Shown here: positions 42,780 through 62,658 of the stretch, piece by piece
How the letters are laid out: each line of letters starts with the position of its first letter
Position numbering within the stretch: the first letter of the stretch is position 1
Source: Pseudomonas graminis
GTDB lineage: Bacteria; Pseudomonadota; Gammaproteobacteria; Pseudomonadales; Pseudomonadaceae
Assembly (NCBI RefSeq): GCF_013201545.1
Contig: NZ_CP053746.1
Coordinates: forward strand, 3,293,501 to 3,357,500
DNA length: 64,000 bases
Direction of reading: 5' to 3'
Notes under the pieces: generated by a model
Database searches by the model: none
The model's input: the letters and a program-made list of their open reading frames with translations, nothing else
What the model was told of the DNA's origin: nothing
Translations under genes and position numbers: made by a program

Positions 42780-43137
42780 GGGTTGTTTCCTTAGGGTCAG
42801 TCACCCGAGGTGCAAGGCACCGAGCAGGCCGCGTTCAACGCGAAAGTAATGGGCGTGAAGACCCTTTGCCAGGACTGAAGCAGCATGCGTGCCAGCGCTC
42901 TCCATCGCCCGCCGCCCCCGTCAATCCAGCGAGCACCCACAGCTGCAATCCTGCCAACCACCCCAAACTGTTGATCCAGGCGCAAGCGACTGTTGATCCA
43001 CTGTTTCCCCAGCGACACTTGCCCTCATCAAATCAAGCCCAAAAAAAATCCCCGCAGTCGGACCACTGCGGGGATTTCTCTGTTGCTCTGCTGTCAGCTT
43101 GAAGCTTCACACTTGCCGCTTGAAGCTGCCTGCCCTA
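42780..43137. other. Intergenic region between the reductase and exopolysaccharide genes
   Basis: About 360 bases. It holds the promoter of the FMN reductase gene on one side, the terminator of the exopolysaccharide operon (43031-43067), and a copy of the CTTGCCGCTTGAAGCT repeat (about 43085-43129). No supported gene. Confidence 0.5.
43031..43067 (-). terminator. Terminator of the exopolysaccharide operon
   Basis: On the minus strand AAATCCCCGCAGT and ACTGCGGGGATTT enclose a 6-nt loop and are followed by eight T in total. It lies about 70 nt after the wza-like stop codon and closes the operon. Confidence 0.92.
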
Positions 43138-44220: not shown

Positions 44221-44384
44221 ATGAATGTTCCTTCTAATCCTAATAGGTGCGTACTGGCACCGCAGTGATTTCTTTGCATCCCTTACTTACACCGAACATC
44301 GGATCACATTCGCTCATGCACCCGTGCACCTCCCGCCGAGCTTACTAGCCCTTGGCCATGTTTGTTGTAATTGGCAGATTTTTT

Positions 44385-45797: not shown

Positions 45798-45810
45798 AGG
45801 CTGGGCTCGC

Positions 45811-47034: not shown

Positions 47035-47129
47035 TGAAATTCTCTGCATTAACGGCTGAGGGACGCCCGATACGTCGAGCCAGGCTCGCGAGGGCCATCC
47101 CATGCCTATCCATGTGCGCAGGCGCTAAA

Positions 47130-48170
47130 TCAGACGCTGACAGGCTGCGTCTCGGCGTTGCGGTTATTAAGGCGTTTTCCGAGCTGTATGAAAGGGTGTT
47201 CGATGTAGCGGAAGCACAGATGGGCAGCGCCCAGGGTCAGCACTGTCGCGACCATCGCCACCAGCAGGCCCGGCGCGTCGGTGCCGCGCAGCAGGAATTC
47301 GCTGAGCATGCCCATCGACGGGTGCAGCAGGTACAGCGAGTAACTCACTGCGCCCAGCCAGACCAGCGCCGGGTGGTTCAGACGCACACTGCGGGTCAGC
47401 AGCACGAAGCTGACAATGGCCACCGCGTAGGTGAAGCAGTAACGGCCCCAGGTTTCGCCGGTGCCCATGTCCTTGCTGTAAGCCATGATCAGCGTCGGCG
47501 GTAACAGCACGGCGAAGGCCACGAACAGCATTTTCAGGTTCCGCGTCAGCGCCGGGCTGTGTTCCGCCAGCAACCACTGGCGCCACACGGAGCCAAAGAA
47601 CATCAGCGACAACGCGAGCGGAAGGGCCACCGGCAGTTTGTGTTCAGTCAGCGCGCGGGCCACGCTCATCGCCAGCGCTGCGAGCAGAAACACCAGCGAA
47701 CAGCGCGCCCGGAACGCCAGGTCATACAGCTTGCCGGCGATAAACAACGCCAGGCACAGGCCGTAGAACACCAGTTCGATGAACAGCGTCCAGTACAGGC
47801 CGACCACGTCGTCGAAGCCCAGCGCCGCCTGCACCATGGTCAGGTTCGCGACGATCTGCGGCCAGGACGGCAACGGCGCGCCGCTCAACTGAAGCATCAG
47901 CACAAACAGCACCAGTGACAGCCAGTAGGCCGGGTACAAGCGCATGAAGCGTGAGATCAGAAAACGCCGGGCGCCATCGGGGACCGGCTTCAGGCTGTAG
48001 GGAATCACTACGCCGCTGATCATGAAAAACCACAACACCCCCAACTTGCCGGGGTCGATCAGGTAATCCAGCACCCAGACGTGACCAATGACCGGTGCAT
48101 ACAAATGGGTGAAAACCACCATCAAGGCGGCGATGCCGCGCAATGCGTCGAGATAGGCAAGGCGTTTCAT
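47130..48170 (-). CDS. Acyltransferase 3 family membrane protein
   Basis: A 346-residue integral membrane O-acyltransferase with about ten hydrophobic segments. It begins KRLAYLDALRGIAALMVVFTHLY with the conserved arginine and histidine of the Acyl_transf_3 family, followed by VLWFFMISGVVIPYSL and RFLISRFMRLYPAYWLSL. It most likely acetylates or succinylates the repeat unit. It sits between two glycosyltransferase genes. Confidence 0.9.
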   Translation of the reverse strand: MKRLAYLDALRGIAALMVVFTHLYAPVIGHVWVLDYLIDPGKLGVLWFFMISGVVIPYSLKPVPDGARRFLISRFMRLYPAYWLSLVLFVLMLQLSGAPLPSWPQIVANLTMVQAALGFDDVVGLYWTLFIELVFYGLCLALFIAGKLYDLAFRARCSLVFLLAALAMSVARALTEHKLPVALPLALSLMFFGSVWRQWLLAEHSPALTRNLKMLFVAFAVLLPPTLIMAYSKDMGTGETWGRYCFTYAVAIVSFVLLTRSVRLNHPALVWLGAVSYSLYLLHPSMGMLSEFLLRGTDAPGLLVAMVATVLTLGAAHLCFRYIEHPFIQLGKRLNNRNAETQPVSV

Positions 48171-48179
48171 GGCAATGCC

Positions 48180-49301
48180 TCAGAGCTTGCTGGAAGATTC
48201 GCGACCCAGGGCATCGCTGCCCTGGCTGCTGCGCCGGTCTCTGGCCGGACTCAGCAGCGCGTCGATGCGTTGGGAAACCTGGCGTGCCGACTCTTCCCAG
48301 GAAAACCGCGCTACGTTGTTCAGTCCGCGCCGACGCAGCGACTGGCGCAGCGGCATGTCCGTCAGGATGCGTTCCATGGCGGCGGCCATGTGCTCAATGT
48401 CCAGCGGGTCGAAATACAGCGCGCTGGCCTGCAGCACTTCAGGGATCGACGCCGCGTTGGCCGCCAGCACCGGGCAACCACAGGCCTGTGCTTCCAGGGG
48501 CGGAATGCCGAAGCCTTCGTACAGCGACGGAAACACAAACGCCGTTGCGCCCTGGTACTGGCTGATCAGTTCGTCATCGCTCAGGCGACCCAGAAAGCGG
48601 ATGCGCGGGTCACGACTGGCCAGGCGTTGCAGGTTGTCGTCGCTGAAAATCCCGCTGGCGCCACCGACAATGCGCAGCTGCAGATCATCGTGGCCGCGCA
48701 GCAGCAGGAACGCCTGAATCATCCGGCTGAAATTCTTGTGGGCGCTGGGCGAAGACACCGCCAGCAAGTAATCCTGTTGCTCTTTAAGGGGCGGCCCCGG
48801 TTGAAACGCACCGCTCACGGCATTGGGCACCACGAAAATTTTCTTCTCCGGGAATTTGTAGAACTGCGAGATCTCGCCCTTGGAGAAGGCGCTCACCGTC
48901 AGCAGCGACTTGATCCGCGACAGCATGATCGGCGTCATGGTCCGGTAGAGCAGGCGAAAGGTGCGCGTGTAGCTTTCCGGGTGACGCACATAGGTGACGT
49001 CGTGGTGGGTCGCGATCTGATTGCCGTACAGCAGCGGCGCGGTGCTGCACAGCGAAATCAGCAGCGGGTTGCCCTGACGGCGCAGGTACAGCGGCAGGTC
49101 CAGTTGCTCCCACAGGTGGCCGCTGTGACTGCCGATGCATTGCACGTCGAGGGCTTTGGCGCTCTCGTGCATCTGAATGCCGTGGGGGGCCACAAACACC
49201 ACGTCGTCGCGCAGTTGCTTGAGGGCCAGGCAGATCTGTTCGGCGAAGCGTTGAACGCCACGCAATTCCTGGGTCAGGAAACGTGCATTGATCACAATCA
49301 T
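48180..49301 (-). CDS. Glycosyltransferase family 4 protein
   Basis: A 373-residue GT-B protein. VINARFLTQELRGVQRFAEQI opens the acceptor domain (as in WbpY/mannosyltransferase B-like enzymes), and YLLAVSSPSAHKNFSRMIQAF, RIRFLGRLSDDELISQY and FPSLYEGFGIPPLEAQACGCPVLAAN form the donor domain, with the EGFG...E motif. The ATG at 49301 begins the family N-terminus. It lies in the same transcript; 9 nt separate its stop from the acyltransferase ATG. Confidence 0.9.
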   Translation of the reverse strand: MIVINARFLTQELRGVQRFAEQICLALKQLRDDVVFVAPHGIQMHESAKALDVQCIGSHSGHLWEQLDLPLYLRRQGNPLLISLCSTAPLLYGNQIATHHDVTYVRHPESYTRTFRLLYRTMTPIMLSRIKSLLTVSAFSKGEISQFYKFPEKKIFVVPNAVSGAFQPGPPLKEQQDYLLAVSSPSAHKNFSRMIQAFLLLRGHDDLQLRIVGGASGIFSDDNLQRLASRDPRIRFLGRLSDDELISQYQGATAFVFPSLYEGFGIPPLEAQACGCPVLAANAASIPEVLQASALYFDPLDIEHMAAAMERILTDMPLRQSLRRRGLNNVARFSWEESARQVSQRIDALLSPARDRRSSQGSDALGRESSSKL

Positions 49302-49424
49302 TGTGGTCGACCTGTAGAAGAGATAAAGGGGTCGTGCGCAGGCGCCTTCAGCGCGCTCAGTCAAGAGCCGTCAGCACCCTGAATGAAGGGGCGCTCGAAA
49401 GGCGGGCCAAAAAAAAGGCAGAAT

Positions 49425-50747
49425 TCAGGGCAAGGCAAACAGTGCCGGGCGTGTGCCCAGGCTTATTATTTTCGGGAAGTCATCAATCGGCACTTGCGCC
49501 GAGCAACGCCCGTCGTTGCAGTTCCACGGGATACCGCTGTCGACCTGCCCCCGTTGTGGCTGGCGGGTGTCGATGTATTGCACGTTGCCGCGCAGCACAC
49601 TACTGGCGTCGACCTTGATCGATCGCGGCAGCCCGGCGGTCCAGGCGACCATGATCTGCTCTGACCCCTTGGCGAATCGCAGCAGGTATTGCGAGTCGAT
49701 TTCGCGACTCTTTTCAGCGTCGTAGCGGAACTGATGCAGCGTCGGGCTGATGGCCTTCAACGTCAGGTACGCCTGTTTGATGCTCAGGTCCTGATTGAGC
49801 AGGCCGAAGTTCTGCTCAGGATCAGTGCCGTCGGGACCGTCGTTGAGCAGGCCGTTCCACCACATGCCCTTGATGTTGGGCATCGTCTGCGCAAGGAAGA
49901 AACTGCGCGCCAGGAACGCTGCCTGGGTCTTCTCGTCACCGCCGCAACGCCCGTCGTTGCTGGGCCAGCCCATCTCGGTGAGGTACAGCGGCACCGGGCC
50001 TTTGTTGCGGTTCCTGTCCGTCAGGTCCTCGCTGATTCGTCGCAGCCAGGCAATCCAGTTTTCCGGGGTATTGCGCTCATCCGAACGGCAATACACATAC
50101 GGATGAAGCGACAACCCGTCGACATGGTTCAGCAGCCCCGATTCCACCAGCCGGTCGGCGAATCCCAGGTCCATGCCCTGACTGGTCACGGCGCCGGCCA
50201 GAATCACCATCGGCCGTTGGTTGGCGCGAATGCGCTTGGCCGTTTGCTCGATGAGCAGGCTGTAGTCCCTGGCGAACGCCGGGTCGACCGGGTTTTCCTT
50301 GTCCCACTCGTTCCAGATCTCGTAGAAGTCCACGCTGTCGGTGAGCTGGCGGGTGACGAAGCTGGCGTAGTTGCCGTAAGCATCGCGCACCGAGGGTTTT
50401 CGCGGTTTGGCGTAGTTCTCGTAAAACGGGTTGCCGTAGCCCAGCACCAACAGCGGTCGCAAACGGTTTTCCTGGGCGGCGCTCAGGAATGACTGCCACG
50501 AAGGCTCGATCTTCAACGACCCTCGTCGGGGCTCGGCGCTGGACCAATAGGCATCGTCGCGCACCGAGTCGACACCCGCCGCTTTCAGCAGTTGCAACGC
50601 GCGGACGGAGGTGCCGGGCTTGTTCATCAAGTGCGTGTCCACGCCGATGATGAACGCTTCGTCCGCCCGCGTGATGCAGCTGATCAACAACCCTAGCAAC
50701 AGGACCGCCGAGGGTCGTCGTAACCGGGGCAGGTAAGGGATAAACAT
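49425..50747 (-). CDS. Secreted glycoside hydrolase, PslG-like (GH39 type)
   Basis: A 440-residue secreted (alpha/beta)8 glycosidase. An N-terminal hydrophobic signal (AVLLLGLLISCITRA) is followed by the catalytic barrel; the acid/base glutamate is in EIWNEWDK (about residue 147) and the nucleophile glutamate in YLTEMGWPS (about 258). Their spacing of ~111 residues and the total length equal those of PslG of P. aeruginosa, which trims exopolysaccharide in the periplasm. An ATG at 50747 is used; a TTG four codons upstream is in frame. It may shorten or release the polymer. Confidence 0.85.
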   Translation of the reverse strand: MFIPYLPRLRRPSAVLLLGLLISCITRADEAFIIGVDTHLMNKPGTSVRALQLLKAAGVDSVRDDAYWSSAEPRRGSLKIEPSWQSFLSAAQENRLRPLLVLGYGNPFYENYAKPRKPSVRDAYGNYASFVTRQLTDSVDFYEIWNEWDKENPVDPAFARDYSLLIEQTAKRIRANQRPMVILAGAVTSQGMDLGFADRLVESGLLNHVDGLSLHPYVYCRSDERNTPENWIAWLRRISEDLTDRNRNKGPVPLYLTEMGWPSNDGRCGGDEKTQAAFLARSFFLAQTMPNIKGMWWNGLLNDGPDGTDPEQNFGLLNQDLSIKQAYLTLKAISPTLHQFRYDAEKSREIDSQYLLRFAKGSEQIMVAWTAGLPRSIKVDASSVLRGNVQYIDTRQPQRGQVDSGIPWNCNDGRCSAQVPIDDFPKIISLGTRPALFALP

Positions 50748-50847
50748 GGCTTGTCTCAATGAAGAGGCACGGTCCGGAGCGCTTGCTCAGGTAGGTCGCG
50801 GGCCGTCGGCGGTAATGTCGGCATCGCGTACAGGCATGCCGCTGTGT

Positions 50848-52101
50848 TCAAACGGGGTGCGGCAGTGTCTGCCGGTTGCGCTGGGCGACATCGTCCAGCA
50901 GCGTCTGGTCGAAAATACTTTGGTAACTGTCGAGCATCAGCTCCAGGTTCAGTAACGACGCCACGCTGACCCGCGCCTCACCGCTCAGACGCGCCAGTAA
51001 TTCCGGGTTCTGGTGCAACCGCAACATCGCCTGGCCCAGTGAGTCGGGATCCTGCGGGTCGCACAGCAAACCGTTTAGCGGGTCCTGAATGATTTCAGGC
51101 AAACCGCCCATGCGGCTGGCAATCACCGGCACCGAGTGGGCGCAGGCTTCGACGGCAACCATGCCGAACGGCTCGTTCCACAGCGAAGGCACCACGGCGA
51201 CATCGATCTGGCGGTAGAACGTTTCAGGCGTCTGATAACCGACGAAGCTGATCTTCGACGAATTCGCCAGGGCCTTGAACGTGGCTTCGTCATCCGTCTG
51301 GCCACGTCCTGCGATCTGCAGCGTGGCGTCGAAGGGCAGTCGCTGAAATTGCTCGATCAGCCAGGCCACGCCTTTCTGATGGGACAGCGTGCCCATGTAG
51401 CCGAAGCGCAACGGCGCTTTTTTCACTGCGAGATCCGTTTGCCGCCGCTGATGGGGCGAGGCGGTCGGCGGGGTGAACGGGCTGGCGTTGTGCACGACGT
51501 ACGGGCTGGCGTTGCTGAAATATCCGCGCAACTGCAGCTTTTCAAGAATGAATCGACTGACCCCGACCACCGCCGCGACCTGCGCTGACCGAACATCGTG
51601 GCCCTTGCGAAAGGTCTGGCAGCTGCCGCATTGCTGCTGGCAGCATTGGCCGCGTTTGAACATGTTGCTGCTCGGGCACATCAGGTACATGTCATGCAGC
51701 ACCTGGACGATCGGCAGCTTTGCAGCGGTGATCTCGTCCCAGACCGACACCGACCAGCCGGCCAGGTTATGGCAGACCACCAGTTGCGGCTGCGCGTTGC
51801 CGATGACCTTTTTAACGTAGCTGCGCATCGCGCCGTTGTAGCGGTCGCGCAGATGCCAGCCCAGGCGCGCCAGACGGCCAGGCCGCTGCGCACCGAAATG
51901 CCAGTAGAAGTTACGCAGGCCGGCGCGGTAGACCTTGACGCCGTTCACCGCTTCAACGCTCAAACCTGCGTCGGGGCCGGTCACTAGCACGCTGACTTCA
52001 CAGCCGCGCTGCTGCAGGCCTTCGACGGTACGCTGAAGAATGATTTCCGCGCCGCCTCCAATGTGAGGGGCATACAGGCTGCTGATGAACAGTATTTTCA
52101 T
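50848..52101 (-). CDS. Glycosyltransferase family 4 protein
   Basis: A 417-residue GT-B transferase: KILFISSLYAPHIGGGAEIILQR at the N-terminus, LRFGYMGTLSHQKGVAWLIEQF and PSLWNEPFGMVAVEACAHSVPVIAS in the donor domain. A cysteine-rich stretch (CCQQQCGSCQTFRKGHD) in the middle is unusual but known in some GT4 proteins with LPS/EPS roles (a metal site is possible). Its start overlaps the stop of the preceding glycosyltransferase by 4 nt. Confidence 0.9.
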   Translation of the reverse strand: MKILFISSLYAPHIGGGAEIILQRTVEGLQQRGCEVSVLVTGPDAGLSVEAVNGVKVYRAGLRNFYWHFGAQRPGRLARLGWHLRDRYNGAMRSYVKKVIGNAQPQLVVCHNLAGWSVSVWDEITAAKLPIVQVLHDMYLMCPSSNMFKRGQCCQQQCGSCQTFRKGHDVRSAQVAAVVGVSRFILEKLQLRGYFSNASPYVVHNASPFTPPTASPHQRRQTDLAVKKAPLRFGYMGTLSHQKGVAWLIEQFQRLPFDATLQIAGRGQTDDEATFKALANSSKISFVGYQTPETFYRQIDVAVVPSLWNEPFGMVAVEACAHSVPVIASRMGGLPEIIQDPLNGLLCDPQDPDSLGQAMLRLHQNPELLARLSGEARVSVASLLNLELMLDSYQSIFDQTLLDDVAQRNRQTLPHPV

Positions 52102-53099
52102 AATGGATACGACTGATTCAGACCCAGTACCCCGGACTCACCGTCACGGATGGCTTTTTCGATCAGGCCCAGGCGTTCCTCGGCACCGCGTCGCTTGGCG
52201 ATCAGCCGCAGCAGGCGGAAGAACACCCAGCGGTTGAGGCCGTACAGCAGCGACGAATTGGCCCAGATGTTCTTGTCGAACCAGGCCTGGTTGCGCGCGC
52301 CGTAGTAGGCGCGCAAGTCCGAGCCGCCCAGCAGGAAGCTCTCGTAGATGTTGTTGGTGCGCGCCTTGATGTTCCACGAGCTTTCCAGGTCATCGAGCAA
52401 GGCATCCGGCACCAGGAAGATCCGGCCGCCACCGGCGGTGATGCGAAAGGTGTATTCGCTGTCGTCGGCATAGAGCATCAACGCATCCAGAGGCAGGCCG
52501 ATGCGGCGATACAGGTTGCGATGGGCGAGCAGGCCGCCGTAGGTAGCGAATGGCAATTGCACCATCGGCAGTTTGCGATGGGGGCTTTGCGGCGCGCCCC
52601 ACGGCAGGCGACGCCAGACCTTGTACGGCAGCTGCGCGATGTGAAAACCGAAAAAGCTCGAACGGCGCTGGATGGCGAAGCGATTCGGCACGCCGGCGGC
52701 GATATCCGCCTGATGGGTCGGACGAAAGCCCAGTACGGCGGCCTTGTCTTCGCCGTCGACGCGTTTACGTTCTTCGAGCACCTGATGCAGCGTGGCAATG
52801 GCGTTGATGGTCGGCGCGTTGTCGTCGTCCATCAGCCAGATGTGCTCGGCCCCGGCGTCCAGCGCGGCCTGAATCCCCACCGAATAGCCCCGCGCCGAAC
52901 CGGTGTTCTCATGCATGTAGATCACGCTGACCTGGTTCGGCCAGTTGCGGCGCAGGGTGTCCAGCGGCGCGGTGGATGCGTTGCTGACAATGATCACACG
53001 GTCGATCAGCGGGCTTTCCAGCGAGCGGCTGACCAGCGTGTGCAGGTAGTTGAAACGATCACCATAGGTGAGCGTCACCAGCGTGGTTTTCTGGGTCAT
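52098..53099 (-). CDS. Glycosyltransferase family 2 protein
   Basis: A 333-residue GT-A transferase: TLVTLTYGDRFNYLHTLVSRSL at the N-terminus, the metal-binding triple aspartate in WLMDDDNAP (about residue 93), and YADDSEYTFRITAGG as the likely catalytic-base region. It resembles rhamnosyl/galactofuranosyl-transferase-like GT2 enzymes (GlfT-like). The ATG at 53099 starts the conserved sequence; GGAACT lies upstream. It is linked by a 4-nt overlap to the next gene. Confidence 0.88.
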   Translation of the reverse strand: MTQKTTLVTLTYGDRFNYLHTLVSRSLESPLIDRVIIVSNASTAPLDTLRRNWPNQVSVIYMHENTGSARGYSVGIQAALDAGAEHIWLMDDDNAPTINAIATLHQVLEERKRVDGEDKAAVLGFRPTHQADIAAGVPNRFAIQRRSSFFGFHIAQLPYKVWRRLPWGAPQSPHRKLPMVQLPFATYGGLLAHRNLYRRIGLPLDALMLYADDSEYTFRITAGGGRIFLVPDALLDDLESSWNIKARTNNIYESFLLGGSDLRAYYGARNQAWFDKNIWANSSLLYGLNRWVFFRLLRLIAKRRGAEERLGLIEKAIRDGESGVLGLNQSYPL

Positions 53100-53205
53100 G
53101 GCGAGTTCCGGGCGAAGGGGGGTCAAGAGGCTGAAAGCATCAGCCCCGTGGGAATCAGGATGTGTGGGTCAAAATGTGTGGATCAGCACGGACAACGCTA
53201 ACGGC

Positions 53206-53730
53206 TCACGCCCGCGCTTGCATCCGTGACAGGCTGCTGACCGGCAGGGTGACCTTTTGCTCGCGTTGCAGCAGGTTGAGCAGAATCACCGCACGTTCAT
53301 CACCGTCGGCAGCCAGGAAGATCGCTTCGACGTCGTTGAAGCCCTCGGCCGTGACCCGCACCGTTTCGCCCTCTTGAAAGGCGACCCTGGCCGGCGGCGC
53401 CAACAGACGCTGGCGAATCTGCTCGATCAACGCATCCTGCACCGGAACCGGCATGCCGCCGAACGTAACGATGCGCGCCACGCCCCGGGTCGAGCGGATC
53501 GGGTACCAGTTGTCGCTGGCCTGGTCCATGTGGATGAACAGGTAACCGGGGAACAGCTCTTCTTCGGCTGGCGCCCGTGAGCCGCGTTTTTTCTCACCGC
53601 GCTTGACCGGGCGGTAGCACTCGAACTGCTGACGTTGCAGGTGCTCTGCGGCACGTGCTTCCTGACGGGGTTTGGTCTGGATGAGGTACCAGCGTGCGGA
53701 GCCACCGGAGCTATTGACGACTTCAGACAT
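53206..53730 (-). CDS. rfaH: RfaH-like transcription antiterminator (NusG paralogue)
   Basis: A 174-residue NusG-family protein specialised for one operon. The N-terminal NGN domain (ARWYLIQTKPRQEARAAEHL, EELFPGYLFIHM, IRSTRGVARIVTFGG) contacts RNA polymerase; the C-terminal KOW-type domain (GFNDVEAIFLAADGDERAVILLNLLQREQKV) matches E. coli RfaH (EGFQAIF...LLLNLI) closely. RfaH binds ops DNA in paused polymerase and prevents Rho termination. An ops element lies in this operon's own leader, so it should drive its own transcript. The ATG at 53730 has GGAG upstream. Confidence 0.92.
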   Translation of the reverse strand: MSEVVNSSGGSARWYLIQTKPRQEARAAEHLQRQQFECYRPVKRGEKKRGSRAPAEEELFPGYLFIHMDQASDNWYPIRSTRGVARIVTFGGMPVPVQDALIEQIRQRLLAPPARVAFQEGETVRVTAEGFNDVEAIFLAADGDERAVILLNLLQREQKVTLPVSSLSRMQARA

Positions 53731-53735
53731 ACACT

Positions 53736-54536
53736 TCACTCCACTGCGATCCGGTGCGACCCGGTCAGGACAACGTCAGGTTTTTGCGCCAGCCCGTGCA
53801 TCATGACGGGCCTTGCGCAGGGTGGATTTTTGTCCAGCCCGTATTCGGTCAACAGTTGCTGCACCTGCTCGACGCAGTTGAACATCAGCACATCGATGAT
53901 CGACAGGTTGGCGACGAAAGGTTGCCTGAACTGCCGATACACCACCGGGTTCATCCGGAAAAACCGCACCAGCAAACCGTTGCGGGCAAAGTGATCACGG
54001 TCGTAGAGCACCGAGCCGCCTTCCGGGGTAATGAACGTGGTGGCTTCAAACGTGTGAGCGATGCGGATAATGCGCTCTTGCTTGTCCGCAGCGCTACCTA
54101 ATATCAGGTCCGAGCTGCGCAGGATCGGCGTTACGATGTGGAGATAAGCACACATTTCACGGATGGCGTGTTCGGCATACAGCGCGATGTTCTGCTGGGG
54201 GAAACGGATCAACCGTTCCAGCAGCGGCATGACCTGCGCGAAGTAGGGCGCCTCTCGGTAGCTCTCGGCGAGCAGATCGATCAGCCGTGGCGCTTCATCG
54301 CTGAAGTGCTCACACAGTTGACGCTGATTGATCTGCAGCTGAAAGCGGTCTTTCTTCAACGGGAAGCTGATCAGCCTGGCCGCGCCGTTGTGCAGGATGC
54401 GATTGCGATTGACCCAGCCGGACCGCACATACTGCAGATCATCTCCCAGGACGAAGACGTCTGCAGCAGCGATGAGCTGAAAGTAGCCCAGGTACGGGAA
54501 CAAGTAGGGCTGCATCACTGCAAGGGTCCTGGCCAT
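53736..54536 (-). CDS. WbqC family protein
   Basis: A 266-residue WbqC-like protein. The family N-terminus is clear (LAVMQPYLFPYLGYFQLIAAADVFVLGDDLQY), as is FPLKKDRFQLQINQ. Family members occur in O-antigen and exopolysaccharide loci, mostly near amino-sugar genes, and are thought to modify a sugar; the reaction is unknown. It lies between wzc and rfaH in the same transcript, 5 nt from the rfaH start. The transaminase in the same operon fits an amino-sugar role. Confidence 0.9.
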   Translation of the reverse strand: MARTLAVMQPYLFPYLGYFQLIAAADVFVLGDDLQYVRSGWVNRNRILHNGAARLISFPLKKDRFQLQINQRQLCEHFSDEAPRLIDLLAESYREAPYFAQVMPLLERLIRFPQQNIALYAEHAIREMCAYLHIVTPILRSSDLILGSAADKQERIIRIAHTFEATTFITPEGGSVLYDRDHFARNGLLVRFFRMNPVVYRQFRQPFVANLSIIDVLMFNCVEQVQQLLTEYGLDKNPPCARPVMMHGLAQKPDVVLTGSHRIAVE

Positions 54537-54563
54537 GTGTTTCTCCTTGGCGTGCGTGTCGAT

Positions 54564-56780
54564 TTACTTGCGGACCGTGGTGTAGTCGTAACCGTATGCG
54601 GCGCAGTCGTAGTCGGCGGTCGACGCCTTGCGCAGGACGCCGTTGAAAATCGCACCCTTGATCAGAATGCCGTTGTGCATCAGGCGGCGTTTGCACGCTT
54701 CGATTTCCTTGGCGGTGCTCAGGCCGAAGCGGGTCACCAGCAGGCAGGTGCCGGACTGACGGCCGACCAGCGTGGCATCGGTCACGGCCAGAATCGGCGG
54801 GGTGTCGATGATCACCAGGTCATACAGCGGCGACAGCTCGCTGATCATTTTGTTGAAGTTGTCGTGCATCAACAGCTCGGACGGGTTCGGCGCCGCGTAA
54901 CCGCAGGAGATGAAATCCAGGTTCCGCACTTCGGTGTGGTTGATGACTTCCTTGCTGCCCAGACGCGCAGCGAGGGTGTCCGACAAACCATGCTTGGGCG
55001 TCAGGTTGAACATCTTGTGCAGGTAGCCTTTGCGCATGTCGGCGTCGATCAGCAACACGCGTTTGCCGGTCTGCGCAATGATCACCGCCAGGTTGCTGGA
55101 GACGAACGACTTGCCCACGCCCGGCGTCGGGCTGGAAATCATCAGCACGTTGTTGCGGGCTTCGAGCATGGCGAAGTGCAGGCTGGTGCGCAGGCTGCGC
55201 AATGCTTCGATCGCCAGTTCCGTCGGCGCGCTGACGCTCAGCAGGCGTGGCTCCTTGCTTGTCGAACGGCTCTGGGCGGCCTTTTCCATGCGTTCCTGCA
55301 GTCGCGAATACGGCAGCGACGCGTACACCGGCATGCCGAGGTTTTCGATGACTTCCGGGTTGTCCACGCCGCGATAGAACGCCTGGCGCACAAACACGGT
55401 GGCAACGGCCAGCAGCAAACCGATCAGGGCGGCGACCAGCACGATGATTTTGCGCATCGGCTTGACCGGCTCTTCGACGTTGGCGTCTGCGTTGTCGATG
55501 ATGCGAACGTTGCCGATGCTGCCGGCGCGCAGAATGTCCTGCTCCTGGCTCTTGTCCAGCAACAGGGTGTAGGTCTGCGAGGTGACCTGCATGTCACGGT
55601 TCAGGCGCAGCAGCTCTTGTTGCGTGGCAGGCAGGGCTTCGATCTTCTTCAGCAGCGCAGTTTTCTGTGCCTCAACCTGGCCGATCTGAGTCATCAGGGC
55701 TCGGTAGGTCGGATGCTCCGGCGTGTACAGACGCTCGACGTCGACGCGCTTCATTTTCAGGTCCGACAGGGTGCCTTCCAGCTTGACCACCTGATCCAGA
55801 ACCGATTTGGTCTCAACGCTCAGGTCAACCGACTTGGCGCCCATCTGGAAGTTGTTCAGCGCGATTTCCGACTGTTCCAGCTGCTTGCGCACGGCAGGCA
55901 GTTGCGAACGCAGGAATTCCAGACGCTGGGCGGCTTCGGCCGAACTGCGCTCGACGTTCTGGCGCACATACAGGCGACTGACTTCGTTGAGGATGCGCTT
56001 GGCCAGTGCCGGGTCGGGGTCCTGAATCGACAGGTAGACGATCCCGGAGTCCTTGCCCGCTTCCATGATTTTCAGACGGTCCTGATAATCCAGCGCGGCG
56101 GTCAGGGTGCGTTGACGCACCACGGTGAACTCGGTGCCCGGACGGGCGTTGAGCGCAGCCACCTGGATTTTGATGCCGCTGCCTTCGACCGTCTGACCGA
56201 CAGGGCCGCTGAGCAGTTTGTTACGGTCTTCGTCATACAGGGTGAAGGTGCCCGGTTTGCCCGCCACCATGGTCATCTTTTCGCCAAGCAGTGCGTCCGG
56301 CACGTCTAGCTGAAAGACGTCGATTTTTTCGCCGCCCCAGGCGTAGCTGTTCAGGCCGAACATCGGATCAGCCAGCGCGCCTTCACGCTCGGGCTTGAAC
56401 CGACGCGCCATGTAGCTGCCCAGCCCCGGGATGTATTTGGGCTTCTGCACGATGTACAACTTGAGGTCATCAACGACCTTGCCCAGCACCGCGCGGGATT
56501 TGATCAGCTCGATTTCGGTGGTCGCCTGGGAAACCGACAGCGGCTTGCTGGAGACTTCGGTGCGGCCCTCGATGCCGACTTTGCGCGGCTCGATCTGAAT
56601 CATCGCGTTGGCCTGGAAGATCGGCGTGGCGAGAATGGCGTAGGTGGCGCCGAGCAGGACGCAGATGCCGACAATCGACGCAATCAATCCTTTGTGATCG
56701 AAAAGTGTGCGCAAGATAGTCGCCAGATCGATCCGGGAGTCCTGGACCTCGTCCAGAGAAGTACGGTTCATAGCGGTCAT
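54564..56780 (-). CDS. Polysaccharide co-polymerase/BY-kinase (Wzc type)
   Basis: A 738-residue inner-membrane tyrosine autokinase. Two membrane segments (IASIVGICVLLGATYAIL near residues 30-48 and KIIVLVAALIGLLLAVATVFV near 440-460) enclose the periplasmic Wzz domain. The cytoplasmic kinase has Walker A SPTPGVGKSF, A' LLIDADMRKG and Walker B LVIIDTPP, followed by the C-terminal tyrosine cluster YDCAAYGYDY. It controls chain length and export together with Wza and Wzb. Its ATG follows the wzb stop immediately, with GGAGATCC as ribosome site. Confidence 0.93.
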   Translation of the reverse strand: MTAMNRTSLDEVQDSRIDLATILRTLFDHKGLIASIVGICVLLGATYAILATPIFQANAMIQIEPRKVGIEGRTEVSSKPLSVSQATTEIELIKSRAVLGKVVDDLKLYIVQKPKYIPGLGSYMARRFKPEREGALADPMFGLNSYAWGGEKIDVFQLDVPDALLGEKMTMVAGKPGTFTLYDEDRNKLLSGPVGQTVEGSGIKIQVAALNARPGTEFTVVRQRTLTAALDYQDRLKIMEAGKDSGIVYLSIQDPDPALAKRILNEVSRLYVRQNVERSSAEAAQRLEFLRSQLPAVRKQLEQSEIALNNFQMGAKSVDLSVETKSVLDQVVKLEGTLSDLKMKRVDVERLYTPEHPTYRALMTQIGQVEAQKTALLKKIEALPATQQELLRLNRDMQVTSQTYTLLLDKSQEQDILRAGSIGNVRIIDNADANVEEPVKPMRKIIVLVAALIGLLLAVATVFVRQAFYRGVDNPEVIENLGMPVYASLPYSRLQERMEKAAQSRSTSKEPRLLSVSAPTELAIEALRSLRTSLHFAMLEARNNVLMISSPTPGVGKSFVSSNLAVIIAQTGKRVLLIDADMRKGYLHKMFNLTPKHGLSDTLAARLGSKEVINHTEVRNLDFISCGYAAPNPSELLMHDNFNKMISELSPLYDLVIIDTPPILAVTDATLVGRQSGTCLLVTRFGLSTAKEIEACKRRLMHNGILIKGAIFNGVLRKASTADYDCAAYGYDYTTVRK

Positions 56781-57233
56781 TTATCTTGGATCTCCTGACT
56801 GAAGATAAGGAAGCCAGTCGTCGACGCAACGCGAAAGCTGCTCGTAGGTCTGTTCAAAGGCTAGTTTCGGGCGCCGGTAGGGGTCGGCGATTTCCAGCGC
56901 GTGTTGCCATTTGCCAATCAGAAACGTCTTGCCGCGTACCTCGGGGGCCAGCTTGAGGACGCTCTGGGTCTGACGATGCTCCATGACCAGAATCAGCTCT
57001 GCTTCGTGGAGCATCTGCCGATCGATCTGACGGCTTCGATGTTTGTGGGCGGGGACGTCATTGACCAGCAGCACGGCCTGAGCCAGCGGGTCAATGGTGG
57101 AACTGAGCATGGCGTGGGTCCCGGCCGACGAGATCTGGACGCGCGCGTTCGGCACCCGTTGTCGGAACATGGCTTCGGCCATGGGGCTGCGACAGATATT
57201 GCCGACGCAGACCACCAGTACGTTACTGAACAT
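56781..57233 (-). CDS. Low-molecular-weight protein tyrosine phosphatase (Wzb type)
   Basis: A 150-residue phosphatase that dephosphorylates the Wzc kinase tail. The P-loop C-x5-R is CVGNICRSP (C9, R15), and the general acid lies in DPYRRP near residue 117, both standard for the family. The ATG overlaps the end of the glycosyltransferase gene by 11 nt, and the stop abuts the wzc start. Kinase and phosphatase are thus translated from neighbouring positions. Confidence 0.93.
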   Translation of the reverse strand: MFSNVLVVCVGNICRSPMAEAMFRQRVPNARVQISSAGTHAMLSSTIDPLAQAVLLVNDVPAHKHRSRQIDRQMLHEAELILVMEHRQTQSVLKLAPEVRGKTFLIGKWQHALEIADPYRRPKLAFEQTYEQLSRCVDDWLPYLQSGDPR

Positions 57234-58152
57234 GACCTTTGCTGAGGCTCGTCATCAGTCTCTTGCTGATGTTGGTGCTGAAGTTCTGCCCGACCGCCAG
57301 GAGCGTCTGCATCTTGCGCTTCGGGGTAATCGCCGACAGCGAGTACTCGACCAGCTCCATCAGGAAGTGCTCATACAGCTCCTGATTACCGAGTCGGTTG
57401 TAGTAGTTGGCCAGGGCGCCGGAGGTCTGCAGCGCCATGTGCAGCTTGCGTTTGTTGGAGCGCATGGAAAACACGCCTCCCGGGTGCAACCGATACATCG
57501 CCGGCTTGACCTCACCCATGAATTTGCCCTTGCCGTAGGCACCGAGCAGCGACCACCAGACCAGATCATTGAGTGGCGCGGCGCGCAGCTCGGGCGGCAA
57601 CGAATCGAAGACGTTGCGGAATACCGTGGTCAATGTCGAGATCGGCCGCGCCTTCTGCAGCTCCAGCGCCGTGGCATCCCCGCGCAGCTTGCCTTGCAGC
57701 TGGATAGGGTACTGGCCGCTGATGTCGAAGGGGATCGCGTCGTGGTAGGTCAGCACGTAATCCGGGTTGTTTTCGAGGAAGTCCACCTGGATCTGCAGCT
57801 TGCGCGGGTCAGTCCAGTAATCGTCGCCTTCGCAGTAAGCGATGTAGCGGCCACGCGCTTCGCCGAACAGGCGCGGCACCGGCGGGTTGTTCTGCGAGTA
57901 CTGATTGGTCTCGTGATAGAAGGGCCGGATCAGCGTCGGGAAGCGCTTGGCGTAATCGGCAATGATACGGGCAGTACCATCCGTGGAGGCATCGTCGTTC
58001 ACCAGGATTTCGAAGGCGAACGTGGTTTGCTGCATCAGGAAGCCTTCCAGCGTCTGGGCGACGTAGGCTTCCTGGTTGTAGGCTGGACAGACGATGCTGA
58101 CCAAGGGCGCGGCGGACGGCGAGGTGCTCGTCTTATTGCTATTAGCATCCAT
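57223..58152 (-). CDS. Glycosyltransferase family 2 protein
   Basis: A 309-residue GT-A transferase: VSIVCPAYNQEAYVAQTLEGFL at residues ~18-39, EILVNDDASTDGTARII, and the D-x-D region YCEGDDYWTDPRKLQ. It belongs to a WcaA-like GT2 group that acts on the lipid-linked unit. The last eleven bases overlap the wzb gene. It lies downstream of the flippase gene, 17 nt from it. Confidence 0.9.
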   Translation of the reverse strand: MDANSNKTSTSPSAAPLVSIVCPAYNQEAYVAQTLEGFLMQQTTFAFEILVNDDASTDGTARIIADYAKRFPTLIRPFYHETNQYSQNNPPVPRLFGEARGRYIAYCEGDDYWTDPRKLQIQVDFLENNPDYVLTYHDAIPFDISGQYPIQLQGKLRGDATALELQKARPISTLTTVFRNVFDSLPPELRAAPLNDLVWWSLLGAYGKGKFMGEVKPAMYRLHPGGVFSMRSNKRKLHMALQTSGALANYYNRLGNQELYEHFLMELVEYSLSAITPKRKMQTLLAVGQNFSTNISKRLMTSLSKGHVQ

Positions 58153-58169
58153 GGCTTGGGTACTCGGAG

Positions 58170-59684
58170 TTAAACACTGGGTTTGCTGAACAGAACGGAA
58201 ATCTTCATGACTAGCGGCTTGTAGCTGGCGGCCACAATCAGCAGCGTGAGCAGGCCGCTGACGGCCAGACCCAAGAAGATGCTGATGCGGTTTTCATTGG
58301 CGATCAGGCGTAGCAAGGGCTCGGTGATCGCAAGGCCCACGCCGGTCATCACGCTGATGCGGATGATGTCGCGCAGCCATTGGCTGTGAATGCCCGGGGC
58401 CAGGCGCTGGTGGACGATGACCGGCCAGACGGCGAAGGACACGACGCGCAACACGAACCAGGCGATCGCCGCGCCGTAAGCGCCATAGCCACGAATCGCC
58501 AGAAACATCACCGGCACCGTGATCAGCGCCGAAACGATGCTGTACCAGACATGCAGGTGCATGCGCCCGTAGGCGTATTGCAGGTAAAACTGGAAAGCGC
58601 TGACGGCCATGATGGCGCTGCCCAGCGAGTACCACGGCAGAATCGTTCGGCTCCAGTCGGCAGCAGGGCGATCCCCCGACCAGGCAAAGACCATTTCGTC
58701 GGCGTGCAGCGCGATCAGCGCCGCGAGCGGGAACAGGAACGTGCACACAAACCGGTTAGCCGCCAGATACAGCTGATGCATGTCGTCCCGGCGCCCTTCG
58801 GCCATCAAAACGGTGAGGCGGGGCAGCAGCGTCTGCGCCAGCGGGTTGGAGAGCATCATGATCCCGGTGGTGATCAGCGCCACCAGCGAGAAGTAACCAT
58901 ATTCATTGAGCGGCAGCAGCTCGGAGAGCAGCACCTTGTCGATCTGGGTCAGCACGATCCACAGCACCGCGGTGCCGGACATGCTCGCCGCGAACGGGAT
59001 GATCGGCTTGACCAGATCCCAGTCAAAACCGGTCAGCGGCGATGGCGTCGGCATCTGCTGATAGGCACGGGCCGCGAAGATCACAGCTTCGATCAGGCCC
59101 ACCAGCGCCTGGAATTCGAAGAAGTGCACCGGGTCGTGGGAAATCGTGCTCACCAGCAGCAGGCCACCGAAGTAGCGCAGCGTGGCGATGATAACGTTGG
59201 CGATGTTCAGCCATGCATGCTGCTCAAGGCCTTGAATCCCGCTTTTATAGAGCGTTGAAAACAGGCGCAGGGCGATGACGATGCCCATCAGCCCGATGCA
59301 CTGCACCAGCGTTTCGGTCGACAATTGCTGAGCATTGAGCCAGTGCACGGCGATCCATTCGCTGCCGGCGTACATCGCCACGCAGCAGAACCCCGCCAGT
59401 GGCAGGAAAATGATTTCGAACGAGCGCAGCAGGCGGCCTGTGTAGCGATCCAGTCCCTCACTGCCTTGTCGATGCGCCACTGCCCTGACCAGACTTGGCG
59501 ACAACCCCGCATCCAGCAATTGCAGCCAGGCCTGCAGCACTGAGAAGAACCCGATCAGCCCGTATGCCTCGGCGCCCATGTGGCCGAGATAGAACGGCAT
59601 GATCAGGATCCCTACGAGCAGCGTGTAGGCCTGGCCTGCATAGCTCAACGCAGTGTTGCGTATGACTGAGCGCTTGGTTTGCAT
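58170..59684 (-). CDS. Polysaccharide flippase (Wzx, MATE/PST family)
   Basis: A 504-residue integral membrane protein with about twelve to fourteen hydrophobic segments and the oligosaccharide-flippase layout: NTALSYAGQAYTLLVGILIMPFYLG at the start and LTQIDKVLLSELLPLNEYGYFSL in the middle. It should move the lipid-linked repeat unit to the periplasmic face. The ATG at 59684 has GGAAGGAC upstream; longer readings lie in the preceding gene's end. No Wzy polymerase gene is adjacent. Confidence 0.88.
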   Translation of the reverse strand: MQTKRSVIRNTALSYAGQAYTLLVGILIMPFYLGHMGAEAYGLIGFFSVLQAWLQLLDAGLSPSLVRAVAHRQGSEGLDRYTGRLLRSFEIIFLPLAGFCCVAMYAGSEWIAVHWLNAQQLSTETLVQCIGLMGIVIALRLFSTLYKSGIQGLEQHAWLNIANVIIATLRYFGGLLLVSTISHDPVHFFEFQALVGLIEAVIFAARAYQQMPTPSPLTGFDWDLVKPIIPFAASMSGTAVLWIVLTQIDKVLLSELLPLNEYGYFSLVALITTGIMMLSNPLAQTLLPRLTVLMAEGRRDDMHQLYLAANRFVCTFLFPLAALIALHADEMVFAWSGDRPAADWSRTILPWYSLGSAIMAVSAFQFYLQYAYGRMHLHVWYSIVSALITVPVMFLAIRGYGAYGAAIAWFVLRVVSFAVWPVIVHQRLAPGIHSQWLRDIIRISVMTGVGLAITEPLLRLIANENRISIFLGLAVSGLLTLLIVAASYKPLVMKISVLFSKPSV

Positions 59685-59737
59685 CGAAAGTCCTTCCGGC
59701 GAAACAGGTGAATGGCGCAATGGCTGGCCCGGCGGTG

Positions 59738-60859
59738 TTACATGACCTGCGCGAGGGACGGCACACGGTAGGGCGAGTGGGCGCCGCTGGTTTCGGCGAT
59801 CACCGTGCTGATCACGCGGTCCTGATCGTCGCGCAGCAGGCCTGGGTAAATCGGCAGACACAGCACGCGCTCGCTCAATGAACGCGAAGCGGTTTGTGCC
59901 GCTTGCGGCTGCAAGTACTCAAGGGTGTCCAGCGAGGGATAGAAGTAACGACGCGGGTTGATCCCGTTGGTGTTCAGCGCTGAACGCAAACGCAGCAGTT
60001 GCTGTTCGTCGCTCAGGGCGATTGGGTAATAGCTGTGATTGAGCTGGCTGTTGTTTTCCGGCCGCTGCAGGTCGACGTAATCGCCCAGGCGGGTGGTGTA
60101 GCGGTCAGCGATTTCGGCACGTTCCTGAAGAATGTTCTCGATGTCGTCGAGAATGCACAGGCCCATCGCGGCGGAGAATTCGTTGAGCTTGGCGTTGATG
60201 CCGATGCCTTCGATCTTGTCGACGTCAACGATGCCGAAGTTGCACAGCAGGTGAACCCGGCGCGCTGTTTCGTCATCGTTGGTGATGATCGCGCCGCCTT
60301 CGATGGTGTGAAACAGCTTGGTGGCGTGGAAGCTCAGGGTGCTGATGTCGCCCCAGTTGAGCACCGACTGGCCAGCGTGGCGCACGGCGAAGGCATGGGC
60401 GCCGTCGTACACGACTTTCAGATTGCGCCGACGGGCGATCTCTTCGATGCGCTCGACAGCGCACGGATTGCCGAACACGTGGGTGCCGACAATGGCAGTG
60501 GTGTCGGAGACGATGCGGCTTTCGATGTGGTCGGGCGAGATGTTCCAGGTCTGGGCGTCGATGTCAGCGAAGATCGGTCGAATGCCTTCCCACTGCAGCG
60601 AACTGCTGGTCGCGACGAAGCTGAACGGCGTGGTCACTGCGCTGCCGCTCAGGCCCAGCGCGCGATAAGCGACCTGCAGGGCGAGGGTGCCGTTGTTGGT
60701 GAGGATGACGTGTTTGACGCCCAGATATTCTTTCAGGCGTTGTTCGAGCTCGCACACCAGCGGCCCGTGGTTGGTCAGCCAGCCGCGCGCATAAATGCCC
60801 TCGACGTAGCCCTTGAACTTGTCGATATCGCCCAGGTAAGTCTTGGTGACGTTGATCAT
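59738..60859 (-). CDS. DegT/DnrJ/EryC1 aminotransferase (sugar transaminase)
   Basis: A 373-residue PLP-dependent aminotransferase that makes an amino sugar nucleotide. The PLP lysine is in FHATKLFHTIEGGAI (about residue 180), with VYDGAHAF carrying the aspartate that contacts the pyridine nitrogen. AVTTPFSFVATSSSL and INAKLNEFSAAMG are typical of WecE/FdtB/VioA-like enzymes acting on dTDP-4-keto-6-deoxysugars. The ATG at 60859 has GGAG upstream. It argues that the polymer contains a 3- or 4-amino-deoxy sugar; the isomer is unknown. Confidence 0.9.
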   Translation of the reverse strand: MINVTKTYLGDIDKFKGYVEGIYARGWLTNHGPLVCELEQRLKEYLGVKHVILTNNGTLALQVAYRALGLSGSAVTTPFSFVATSSSLQWEGIRPIFADIDAQTWNISPDHIESRIVSDTTAIVGTHVFGNPCAVERIEEIARRRNLKVVYDGAHAFAVRHAGQSVLNWGDISTLSFHATKLFHTIEGGAIITNDDETARRVHLLCNFGIVDVDKIEGIGINAKLNEFSAAMGLCILDDIENILQERAEIADRYTTRLGDYVDLQRPENNSQLNHSYYPIALSDEQQLLRLRSALNTNGINPRRYFYPSLDTLEYLQPQAAQTASRSLSERVLCLPIYPGLLRDDQDRVISTVIAETSGAHSPYRVPSLAQVM

Positions 60860-60960
60860 CGAATTCTCCATTTCAGATGCAAAGCTTTTAAAAGGCTTTT
60901 GGGCAGTGATGCGGTGGCGCCGGTCTGACGCCGGGCCGTCAACGCCAGGTTCAAGGGGAA

Positions 60961-61746
60961 TCAGTTGGGGGTGGATGCCGGCGGCGGGTTGCCTGCCTTG
61001 TTGCTCATCCGCCGCGCGCGGCCTTGATTGATTTTCAGGATCAACCGGGTGGCCAGGCTGCCGGTATGGGGGTCACCGAAGTGGAAGAGCGCGGTGGCGC
61101 GCTTCACGTCCGGCCGGCAGGCCTGATTGGCGTGCAGGCTGCGATAACCCCAGAAGAAATAAACGCTGCCCGGCTCCAGGCGCAGGACATATGGCTTAAG
61201 CCAGTTGCGCTGCATGCCTTTGATGATCCAGCCGCGGGTGATCTTGTTCTGCAGCAGAGCTTTCTCGATCACGTTGAACAACACCCATGAGCGCACCCGA
61301 CGGATGTTGGGAAACAGCATCAGATCGCCGCGTCCTTCGCCTTCGCTGGGGATAAACACGGGGATCAGCGCGGTCACCAGGCTGGCGTCGTAATGGAAGC
61401 TGTTGGATTCGCGCTTGCCCTGATTGCCCTGCACGCAGCGCAGGACCGGGAAGATGCGGTCACTCGCAGCGTCGCGGCGGGCTGCATGCTTATAGAGACG
61501 ACCCAGCAGCGCCTTGAAACGCGGGTCAGACCAGTAGCTCGCCAGCAGGCTTTCGCTCAGTGCAGCTTCGCCGTGGTAGGCAAAGTATTCGCCCCGGTGT
61601 TTCTGCGCCTGCTCGTCAGTCCAGGCCTGTAGCTGCTGCAGGTCCGAGTCCGGAACGGCCGCGTTCAGTTTTGCAAAGCCGTTGGTATCGATTTCGTCAG
61701 CCAGTCGCTGAACCAGCTGCTCATCCATGTCGAAAGATAAAGGCAT
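60961..61746 (-). CDS. Fe(II)/2-oxoglutarate oxygenase-like protein (phytanoyl-CoA dioxygenase type)
   Basis: A 261-residue cytoplasmic protein of the phytanoyl-CoA dioxygenase-like group. The facial triad is suggested by H-x-D in FHYDAS (about residue 119) and a distal histidine in YRSLHANQACR, and the arginine in KRATALFHF is positioned for 2-oxoglutarate. It is the first gene of the operon, about 60 nt after the ops element. It might hydroxylate a sugar or acyl substituent; the reaction is not known. Confidence 0.75.
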   Translation of the reverse strand: MPLSFDMDEQLVQRLADEIDTNGFAKLNAAVPDSDLQQLQAWTDEQAQKHRGEYFAYHGEAALSESLLASYWSDPRFKALLGRLYKHAARRDAASDRIFPVLRCVQGNQGKRESNSFHYDASLVTALIPVFIPSEGEGRGDLMLFPNIRRVRSWVLFNVIEKALLQNKITRGWIIKGMQRNWLKPYVLRLEPGSVYFFWGYRSLHANQACRPDVKRATALFHFGDPHTGSLATRLILKINQGRARRMSNKAGNPPPASTPN

Positions 61747-61803
61747 TGCATCAGGCCCTCGGAGAGAGTGAGGAGTGCAGGGCAGGGGGTAGATTGCGCT
61801 TCA

Positions 61804-61818
61804 GGCACGCTACCGCCC
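61804..61818 (-). promoter_or_regulatory. ops element in the exopolysaccharide leader
   Basis: The minus strand reads GGGCGGTAGCGTGCC, identical to the ops core (GGCGGTAGCGTG) at the heart of JUMPStart sequences, the site where RfaH loads onto RNA polymerase. It lies 58 nt upstream of the first gene and matches the rfaH gene within the same operon. Confidence 0.85.
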
Positions 61819-61900
61819 GAATCTGCAGATCCTGCCGTTGTATTAATTAGGCGTGCATTCAAACGGCGGCCTTATTCAGCACTGGCTGACTAAAGCGTTG

Positions 61901-61916
61901 GGCAAAGCTACCGCCC
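61901..61916 (-). promoter_or_regulatory. Second ops-like element
   Basis: The minus strand reads GGGCGGTAGCTTTGCC; the first nine ops bases are conserved, with TTT in place of GTG after the C. It lies about 97 nt upstream of the canonical copy and may be the first-box of a spread JUMPStart or a decoy pause site. Confidence 0.55.
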
Positions 61917-62658
61917 CACCGAGCAAATTCAGTAATTCGAAAAAACCTTTCTTTGAACCAAAAACTGCCCACCGGCGCTGATTTCATACCGTTTGAATCG
62001 TCAACTTTTTGGGCAGTCGCAGGGTAATTAAGTCGGAATGCTCTCGGCGCACAGCTCTAGGGCCGCACTGCAAAAACGGGAAAACATTGGACGTGCCTAT
62101 ATATCGACGGAGGCGGAGTTTCTGTCAAATTATTTCGCCATCATTCTGTTAGTTTTTTGATAGGCGGGCCGTCAGCATCGCTAAGTCATTGATTTTATTT
62201 GGAGTCAATAAAACATCATTGCCCCGTCGTGGTGCGCGACGCTTTTTAGGCACTCCTGACGACCACCCAACTGGCCGTCAAAAATAACCGGGAAGACGTT
62301 TTTCCAACGTCAGAACTTGGGCGCGGGTGGGGTTAACGGTTTTATGGCGCTCAAGGATTGAATCCCGTCATACAAACGTAATGGTGCGGTTGAGTAACTA
62401 ATCCACTGAGCGGTAAGTGTGTAATTAAGCGACCACAGCGGTGTTGCAGTTTTATAGATGGAACTGTGTTCGGTTATATATAAATCGAGGCGGGTGAAGT
62501 GATTGATATGACGAAGCTTTCATCAGTGCGCCAGGCAGTGGACCCTACGTGCCATTACTGCGCCCGACAGTGGAGGCGGCGCTGCGGTTGCTCAGCTTTG
62601 ATCGCTGCTCCATTATCCGGGTCTGCGATGCAAACAATTCGGGTCACCAGGAGATTCA

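Follow-up and report, generated by a model that had tools for sequence, protein, structure and literature searches.

How an 18.6-kb polysaccharide operon is read to its end, and whether a factor encoded within it helps to bring this about, is the question raised by a locus on the minus strand of the 64,000-nucleotide stretch of the Pseudomonas graminis contig NZ_CP053746.1 analysed here (the window). Sixteen genes, the first starting at 61746 and the last reaching 43138, code for an aminotransferase, Wzx, glycosyltransferases, Wzb, Wzc, WbqC, RfaH, an acyltransferase, a WcaJ-type transferase and Wza. The best explanation for the arrangement, which we consider likely to be correct, is a self-contained RfaH/ops antitermination operon in which RfaH loads at the ops of its own operon, and the operon probably helps to switch on its own full-length reading. 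The features concerned are:

43138..61746, minus strand: whole 16-gene polysaccharide operon (frames on one strand with a largest gap of 164 nt, Pfam matches, putative co-transcription)
60961..61746, minus strand: gene 1, 261 aa, no assigned function, start codon at 61746
53206..53739, minus strand: rfaH, the eighth gene (ATG start possible at 53730; TIGR01955 and PRK09014 above cut-off)

The first-pass annotation had placed rfaH eight genes downstream of the first gene; as the eighth gene, it lies seven after it. Gene 1 has no match in Pfam or NCBIfam at E <= 0.001, despite which 50 of the 54 related loci described below contain a homologue. The eleventh gene (49425-50759, minus strand) shows a weak match, below cut-off, to cellulase family GH5 and possibly codes for a polysaccharide-trimming enzyme. 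Intrinsic terminators were rejected as the barrier to be overcome, with 19 found inside the operon against 17.3 expected and thus no enrichment.

The protein encoded by the eighth gene scores 194.2 bits against NCBIfam TIGR01955 (cut-off 144.5) and 129.5 bits against PRK09014 (cut-off 124), and it is the sole RfaH over cut-off in the genome, the second hit (52.9 bits) presumably being NusG. Its identity as an RfaH and its linkage with the operon are direct observations, and the presence of an RfaH above curated cut-offs and an exact leader ops in the same operon argues for RfaH loading at its own operon's ops. The protein shares 58 of 144 aligned residues with E. coli RfaH. R138 is conserved, while several E. 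coli residues at or near the ops-contacting surface are changed (Y8Q, R11P, T68P and HTT to NWY), which counts against loading at ops. K10 and R73, which contact DNA, and E48, I93 and F130, which are involved in autoinhibition (PMC7593976), are all five identical in the RfaH of the window, and the retention of the two DNA-contact residues speaks for the proposed loading.

Upstream of gene 1, a leader of approximately 345 nt, with transcription presumably starting near 62090, contains the following features:

62098..62128, minus strand: predicted promoter, TTGACA (62128-62123) and GATATATA (62105-62098), conserved in a 30-leader alignment
61917..61934, minus strand: potential RNA hairpin directly before ops1, from the predicted fold of the preceding 26 nt
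61901..61915, minus strand: ops1, GGCGGTAGCTTTGCC, a second ops-like element; two elements occur in 36 of 54 related loci
61819..61832, minus strand: potential RNA hairpin GGATC-N4-GATTC directly before ops2, from stem conservation in relatives
61806..61817, minus strand: ops2, exact E. coli-type ops GGCGGTAGCGTG, conserved in relatives

The exact twelve-position E. coli ops core reported in the first-pass annotation is borne out: GGGCGGTAGCGTGCC occupies positions 61804-61818 of the minus strand, its 12-mer core (61806-61817) matches at 12 of 12 positions 59 nt before gene 1, and the same 12-mer forms the ops in the wza, rfbB and waaQ leaders of E. coli K-12. The second ops-like element and the hairpins upstream had been missing from that description of the leader. 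The second element, ops1, starts 98 nt upstream of ops2 and carries T in place of the consensus G at position 12. The absence of G12 from ops1 is a point against the proposed loading; in E. coli, a G12C change abolishes the U11 pause and leaves recruitment intact (PMC5995543), so ops1 may recruit RfaH with a weaker pause. The promoter region GAAATAATTTGACAG...GATATATA (62090-62145, minus strand) is better conserved than most of the leader in an alignment with relatives, and in many of these TGACAG and CTGTC stand on either side of the -10 region and might form an inverted-repeat operator.

Short motifs of this kind may arise by chance in a GC-rich genome, and the genome-wide counts lend this explanation some substance: the 12-mer occurs at 52 sites when up to one mismatch is allowed, and the exact 11-mer GGCGGTAGCKT, with five genome sites against 42 for the reversed control, is rarer and not enriched. 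On account of the 52 one-mismatch sites, weight is placed only on the exact match, its position and its conservation. The exact 12-mer GGCGGTAGCGTG has two copies in the whole 5.52-Mb genome, the second being antisense inside a LysR-like reading frame. The five 11-mer sites comprise the two in the operon leader, the antisense one in the LysR-like gene and one each in L089 and L090. The L090 site is covered by reading frames that overlap each other and coincides with the beginning of one, while GGCGGTAGCGTC in L089 (position 1501; G000:C1:3611181, plus strand) lies between reading frames and is followed by a long frame without a Pfam match, itself overlapped by an opposite-strand frame, leaving no clear target gene. 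No convincing second RfaH target was thus found among the five exact sites, L089 being a possible one. It is the comparative data that set the chance explanation aside, with next to no likelihood left to it, through the conservation, position and strand of the elements and their co-occurrence with rfaH.

A scan of species genomes with the RfaH protein of the window yielded 54 related loci, from organisms named Pseudomonas or Stutzerimonas. Most of the operon genes are present in most of these loci, the best hits all lying on the rfaH strand at 33-99% identity in a survey that scored presence and strand, not order; L077 keeps five of the 16 genes. Ops proved to be conserved across orthologous leaders, with 48 of the 50 loci that keep gene 1 having an ops within 500 nt upstream of it. 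A strict pattern found two ops 75-121 nt apart in 36 of the 54 loci, one in 14 and none in four (L052, L064, L080 and L082). Of these four, L080 and L082 each have two versions of ops with one or two mismatches in the same leader, while L052 and L064 have just 3.3 and 5.9 kb, respectively, upstream of rfaH. Both the presence of ops in gene-1 leaders and its duplication favour the proposed loading. In an alignment of 30 leaders, to which L052 has no leader to contribute, both ops elements stand out against poorly conserved surroundings; the lack of a recognisable ops2 in L045 counts against the proposal. The elements, their conservation and their spacing are thus observed directly, and they are almost certainly under selection rather than chance occurrences.

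RfaH is encoded at E <= 1e-25 in 136 of 398 Pseudomonas genomes. The tandem-ops pattern occurs in 20 of the 398, and all 20 belong to the 136 with RfaH, a co-occurrence which supports the proposed pairing and whose counts, the genomes being related, do not represent independent events. The tandem ops lies upstream of rfaH on its strand in 19 of the 20, the exception being G051. The same pattern read backwards, as a control, was found in 24 genomes, four of them with RfaH. In some Pseudomonas genomes (e.g. G083, G114, G172, G220 and G233), two RfaHs belonging to different clades coexist, which poses the problem of how each would be confined to its own ops.

Forty more distant rfaH loci were picked by hand from RfaH hits at 39-54% identity, a set that is neither complete nor random. 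In 39 of the 40 an ops lies near rfaH, adding further support for the pairing; L127, without one, counts against it. The element takes three positions. In 18 loci it is located approximately 0.5-1.2 kb downstream of the rfaH start, on the same strand and just before the next genes; in 12 it is on the opposite strand about 3-5 kb away, with a wzc-type gene between ops and rfaH in the two such loci inspected (L098 and L103); and in nine (L123-L125 and L128-L133) it precedes rfaH itself by about 250 nt, which would place rfaH among the earliest genes transcribed. The next gene in L123 codes for a beta-barrel porin-like protein. By a crude gene caller, six of the 40 distant sites lie inside frames. 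When the related and distant loci are taken together, the motif is present on either strand in 89 of 94, whereas 200 permuted cores averaged 13.5 loci and reached 50 at most; this again favours the RfaH/ops pairing. In a tree of 58 proteins, whose first group comprises the window and 17 of the 54 related loci and from which the overly short L127 was left out, the layout of the window and the ops-before-rfaH layout each fall on one side of a supported branch, while the other two layouts do not. Within the Pseudomonas set examined, the position of rfaH relative to its ops-led genes changes while its proximity to them is kept, and, with 39 of the 40 distant rfaH genes near an ops, linkage looks like the rule in Pseudomonas and not an oddity. 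The earlier statement that RfaH is as a rule encoded at a distance from its targets holds for E. coli but is not borne out by the Pseudomonas loci examined.

Base pairing is possible immediately upstream of most ops sites, with the 3' arm usually ending within about 3 nt of ops, as it does at ops1 of the window. Scanned over 37 non-redundant sites, 24-nt windows have a mean energy of -5.5 when ending at the first ops G and -6.2 when ending three nt later, with flanking windows between -1.1 and -4.7. The lowest mean of all (-6.56) belongs to windows that end 18 nt past the first ops G and include ops; the stem responsible (GGC..GCC) was given no weight as it is built from the conserved motif itself. 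Fold z-scores for the 54 non-redundant of 135 motif sites average -1.17, with 17 at p<=0.05, against a mean of -0.04 and four at p<=0.05 among 104 control sites. The ops1 stem is kept in relatives with weak covariation: in alignment A2, which comprises the window and 17 loci, 93% of cells are paired, against 22-37% when the stem is slid, and two of six pairs changed on both sides, a count reached by 262 of 500 shuffles, while the covariation score was reached by 14 of 500. The GGATC/GATTC stem of ops2 is kept in 13 of 13 distinct rows of a selected alignment (A3, the window and 13 loci) and is the best fold in several relatives, although at the ops2 of the window itself the best fold of the preceding 26 nt is another hairpin, ending 7 nt before ops2. 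Alignment A3 contains no two-sided change and is uninformative on covariation. Covariation as proof of the hairpins was therefore rejected, being weak at ops1 and without a measurable signal at ops2. Both alignments omit near-identical rows and all Stutzerimonas rows; A2 also omits L053, L054, L056, L057 and L059, with the stem in another register, and A3 omits L050, L051, L058, L060 and L061, with other stems, and L045, which has no ops2. In L063, L066-L071, L083 and L084, mostly Stutzerimonas, a single strict-pattern ops is preceded by a different stem, TCGAC...GTCGA, and their relatives have two ops.

The Rfam JUMPstart model includes a stem-loop at the corresponding position (PMC2864571). 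At the gathering threshold there is no Rfam match in positions 40000-64000, and the ops2 region reaches 14.8 bits (E 2.2) against JUMPstart RF01707, under the cut-off of 35 bits, compared to 55-60 bits for the three E. coli K-12 leaders. The Pseudomonas leader is for this reason termed JUMPstart-like and not a JUMPstart member, and the low score of its hairpin is a further point against the proposed loading. The potential hairpins could also suggest that the leader serves chiefly as an RNA platform for some other regulator, a role proposed for certain leader-derived RNAs, with the ops match being secondary. The hairpin sequences, however, vary widely between clades while ops is kept, and the pattern tracks the presence of rfaH, making such a platform very unlikely.

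In a self-contained antitermination operon of this kind, RNA polymerase would start at the conserved promoter and pause at ops1 and again at ops2, at each pause with a nascent-RNA hairpin close behind it, as in JUMPstart. RfaH from the eighth gene would bind the non-template ops strand at either site, displace NusG and travel with polymerase through the 18.6-kb operon, relieving Rho-dependent polarity. Recruitment, the exclusion of NusG and Rho, and ribosome coupling would operate here by analogy with E. coli biochemistry. In E. coli, polymerase pauses at ops without requiring the central bases of the element, whereas RfaH does require them (PMC5995543); RfaH stays bound after loading and excludes NusG, passing ops closes the recruitment window, and RfaH on the polymerase is still able to pause at a second, engineered ops (PMC7819879). 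The second ops of the window might accordingly give a factor in short supply another opportunity to load or, alternatively, let RfaH hold the polymerase once more close to the start of gene 1 while ribosomes are loaded.

With rfaH located 8 kb into the transcription unit, read-through would be expected to increase the supply of RfaH and, in turn, read-through itself, a positive feedback that would act on processivity and not on initiation. Such feedback is moderately probable for this operon, while bistability, which would need more than positive feedback, is improbable. RfaH may also load at ops without any feedback, with rfaH having its own promoter or its product being made in excess. This overlaps the best explanation and denies the loop alone, and a possible internal promoter for rfaH weighs against the best explanation. 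With rfaH 8 kb away, a strict loop would be difficult to start and would require a basal supply, and promoter prediction is weak in Pseudomonas. The start of rfaH, however, overlaps the end of the preceding wbqC-like gene by 4 nt, and none of the three promoter-like sites found in a simple scan of 42900-62400 (4.8 expected) adjoins rfaH, although the same scan did not list the conserved leader promoter. Loading without feedback appears unlikely.

A further alternative concerns the fold of the protein. AlphaFold2, with a 51-sequence alignment, predicts a beta-barrel C-terminal domain for the RfaH of the window (best model pLDDT 75.2, pTM 0.54), whereas the same procedure predicts a helical hairpin (77.7 and 0.73) for the control P0125, which is 99% identical to E. 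coli RfaH. The difference from the E. coli type is suggestive rather than conclusive, the helical hairpin being that of the best control model (the other four scored 47-61) and the control alignment being less diverse (77-87% identity, against 56-96% for the RfaH of the window). A 2026 preprint describes most linked RfaHs as open, beta-folded, ops-independent and lacking some ops-binding residues, and reports activity of linked beta-type RfaHs without ops in E. coli reporters (PMC13015549). The predicted beta-barrel thus counts against RfaH loading at ops and favours a constitutively open, cis-acting RfaH that would load on nearby polymerase during its own translation, the ops elements being mere pauses or relics. 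Against this stand the leaders, which keep the recognition bases and not just the pause bases; the central ops bases are reported to be required for RfaH and dispensable for pausing (PMC5995543). The identity of K10, R73, E48, I93 and F130 and the retention of ops in clades where rfaH has shifted relative to it likewise argue against such a cis-acting RfaH, to which we attach a low probability. The conserved leader ops argues against ops-independence for this group of RfaHs, and the combination of linkage, a predicted beta fold and strongly conserved ops implies either that the prediction is wrong or that ops is used without a fold switch. A tentative extension, less probable than not but worth stating, is that Pseudomonas harbours a large class of operon-linked RfaHs with a beta-barrel C-terminal domain that would still use ops without an alpha/beta fold switch, with two serial hairpin-ops modules in the leaders of the present clade, the first for loading and the other for a further pause at which RfaH would allow ribosomes to load, and the loop serving as a processivity switch with memory. 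If true, sequence recognition could exist apart from metamorphic autoinhibition and might predate it, in conflict with the views that the two arose jointly or that linked RfaHs do without ops.

The system shares with E. coli RfaH and ops/JUMPstart (RF01707) an identical 12-nt ops and a long polysaccharide operon downstream, and a potential stem-loop directly upstream of ops recalls the E. coli one. In E. coli, however, rfaH is a separate gene beside tatD and ubiD, and the window differs further in having rfaH inside the operon, two ops approximately 98 nt apart and a leader below the Rfam cut-off. UpxY of Bacteroides fragilis and TaA of Myxococcus are likewise NusG paralogues encoded in the operon they activate; UpxY works on a leader that precedes its own gene, and the accounts of it in the same two sources describe no ops (PMC7593976, PMC7819879), whereas in the window the gene lies 8 kb downstream and ops is the putative site. 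ActX of conjugative plasmids is a close RfaH relative in a long operon, but one for a pilus, and its function is given as unknown (PMC7819879). The Shewanella CL7 RfaHs reside in a putative exopolysaccharide operon, with no ops given where they are described (PMC7593976). EPS273-M, an RfaH-domain protein encoded at the EPS273 locus in Pseudomonas stutzeri 273, has been put forward as the direct activator of that locus, with no ops mentioned and the words 'operon' and 'promoter' absent from the main text (PMC5532660). As with UpxY, rfaH of the window is found inside its putative target operon, and in relatives these genes likewise share a strand. Recruitment is described as understood in detail for E. 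coli RfaH alone, that of operon-encoded NusG paralogues being stated to be unknown (PMC7593976). Among the top-ranked papers of a literature search, judged mainly by title and the start of the abstract and including few subscription papers, none was seen to deal with tandem ops, with an ops in Pseudomonas or with its pairing with a resident RfaH, and the word 'Pseudomonas' is absent from the main text of PMC7593976, PMC13015549 and PMC5995543.

Operon-resident NusG paralogues were thus already known (UpxY, TaA and ActX; PMC7593976, PMC7819879), and the RfaH/ops pairing described here is a variant of RfaH/ops systems. Of the first-pass proposal of a self-contained antitermination operon, the leader ops and the genuine RfaH in the same operon stand and are conserved in Pseudomonas and Stutzerimonas, while the supposed rarity of the linkage does not. 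The finding is real, conserved and more general than first thought. One genus provides many linked rfaH/ops pairs in four layouts, together with natural one- and two-ops leaders, and the question of ops-dependence is thereby directly testable with reporters. If the loop works as drawn, the operon would represent a natural case of positive feedback on transcription elongation, not initiation.
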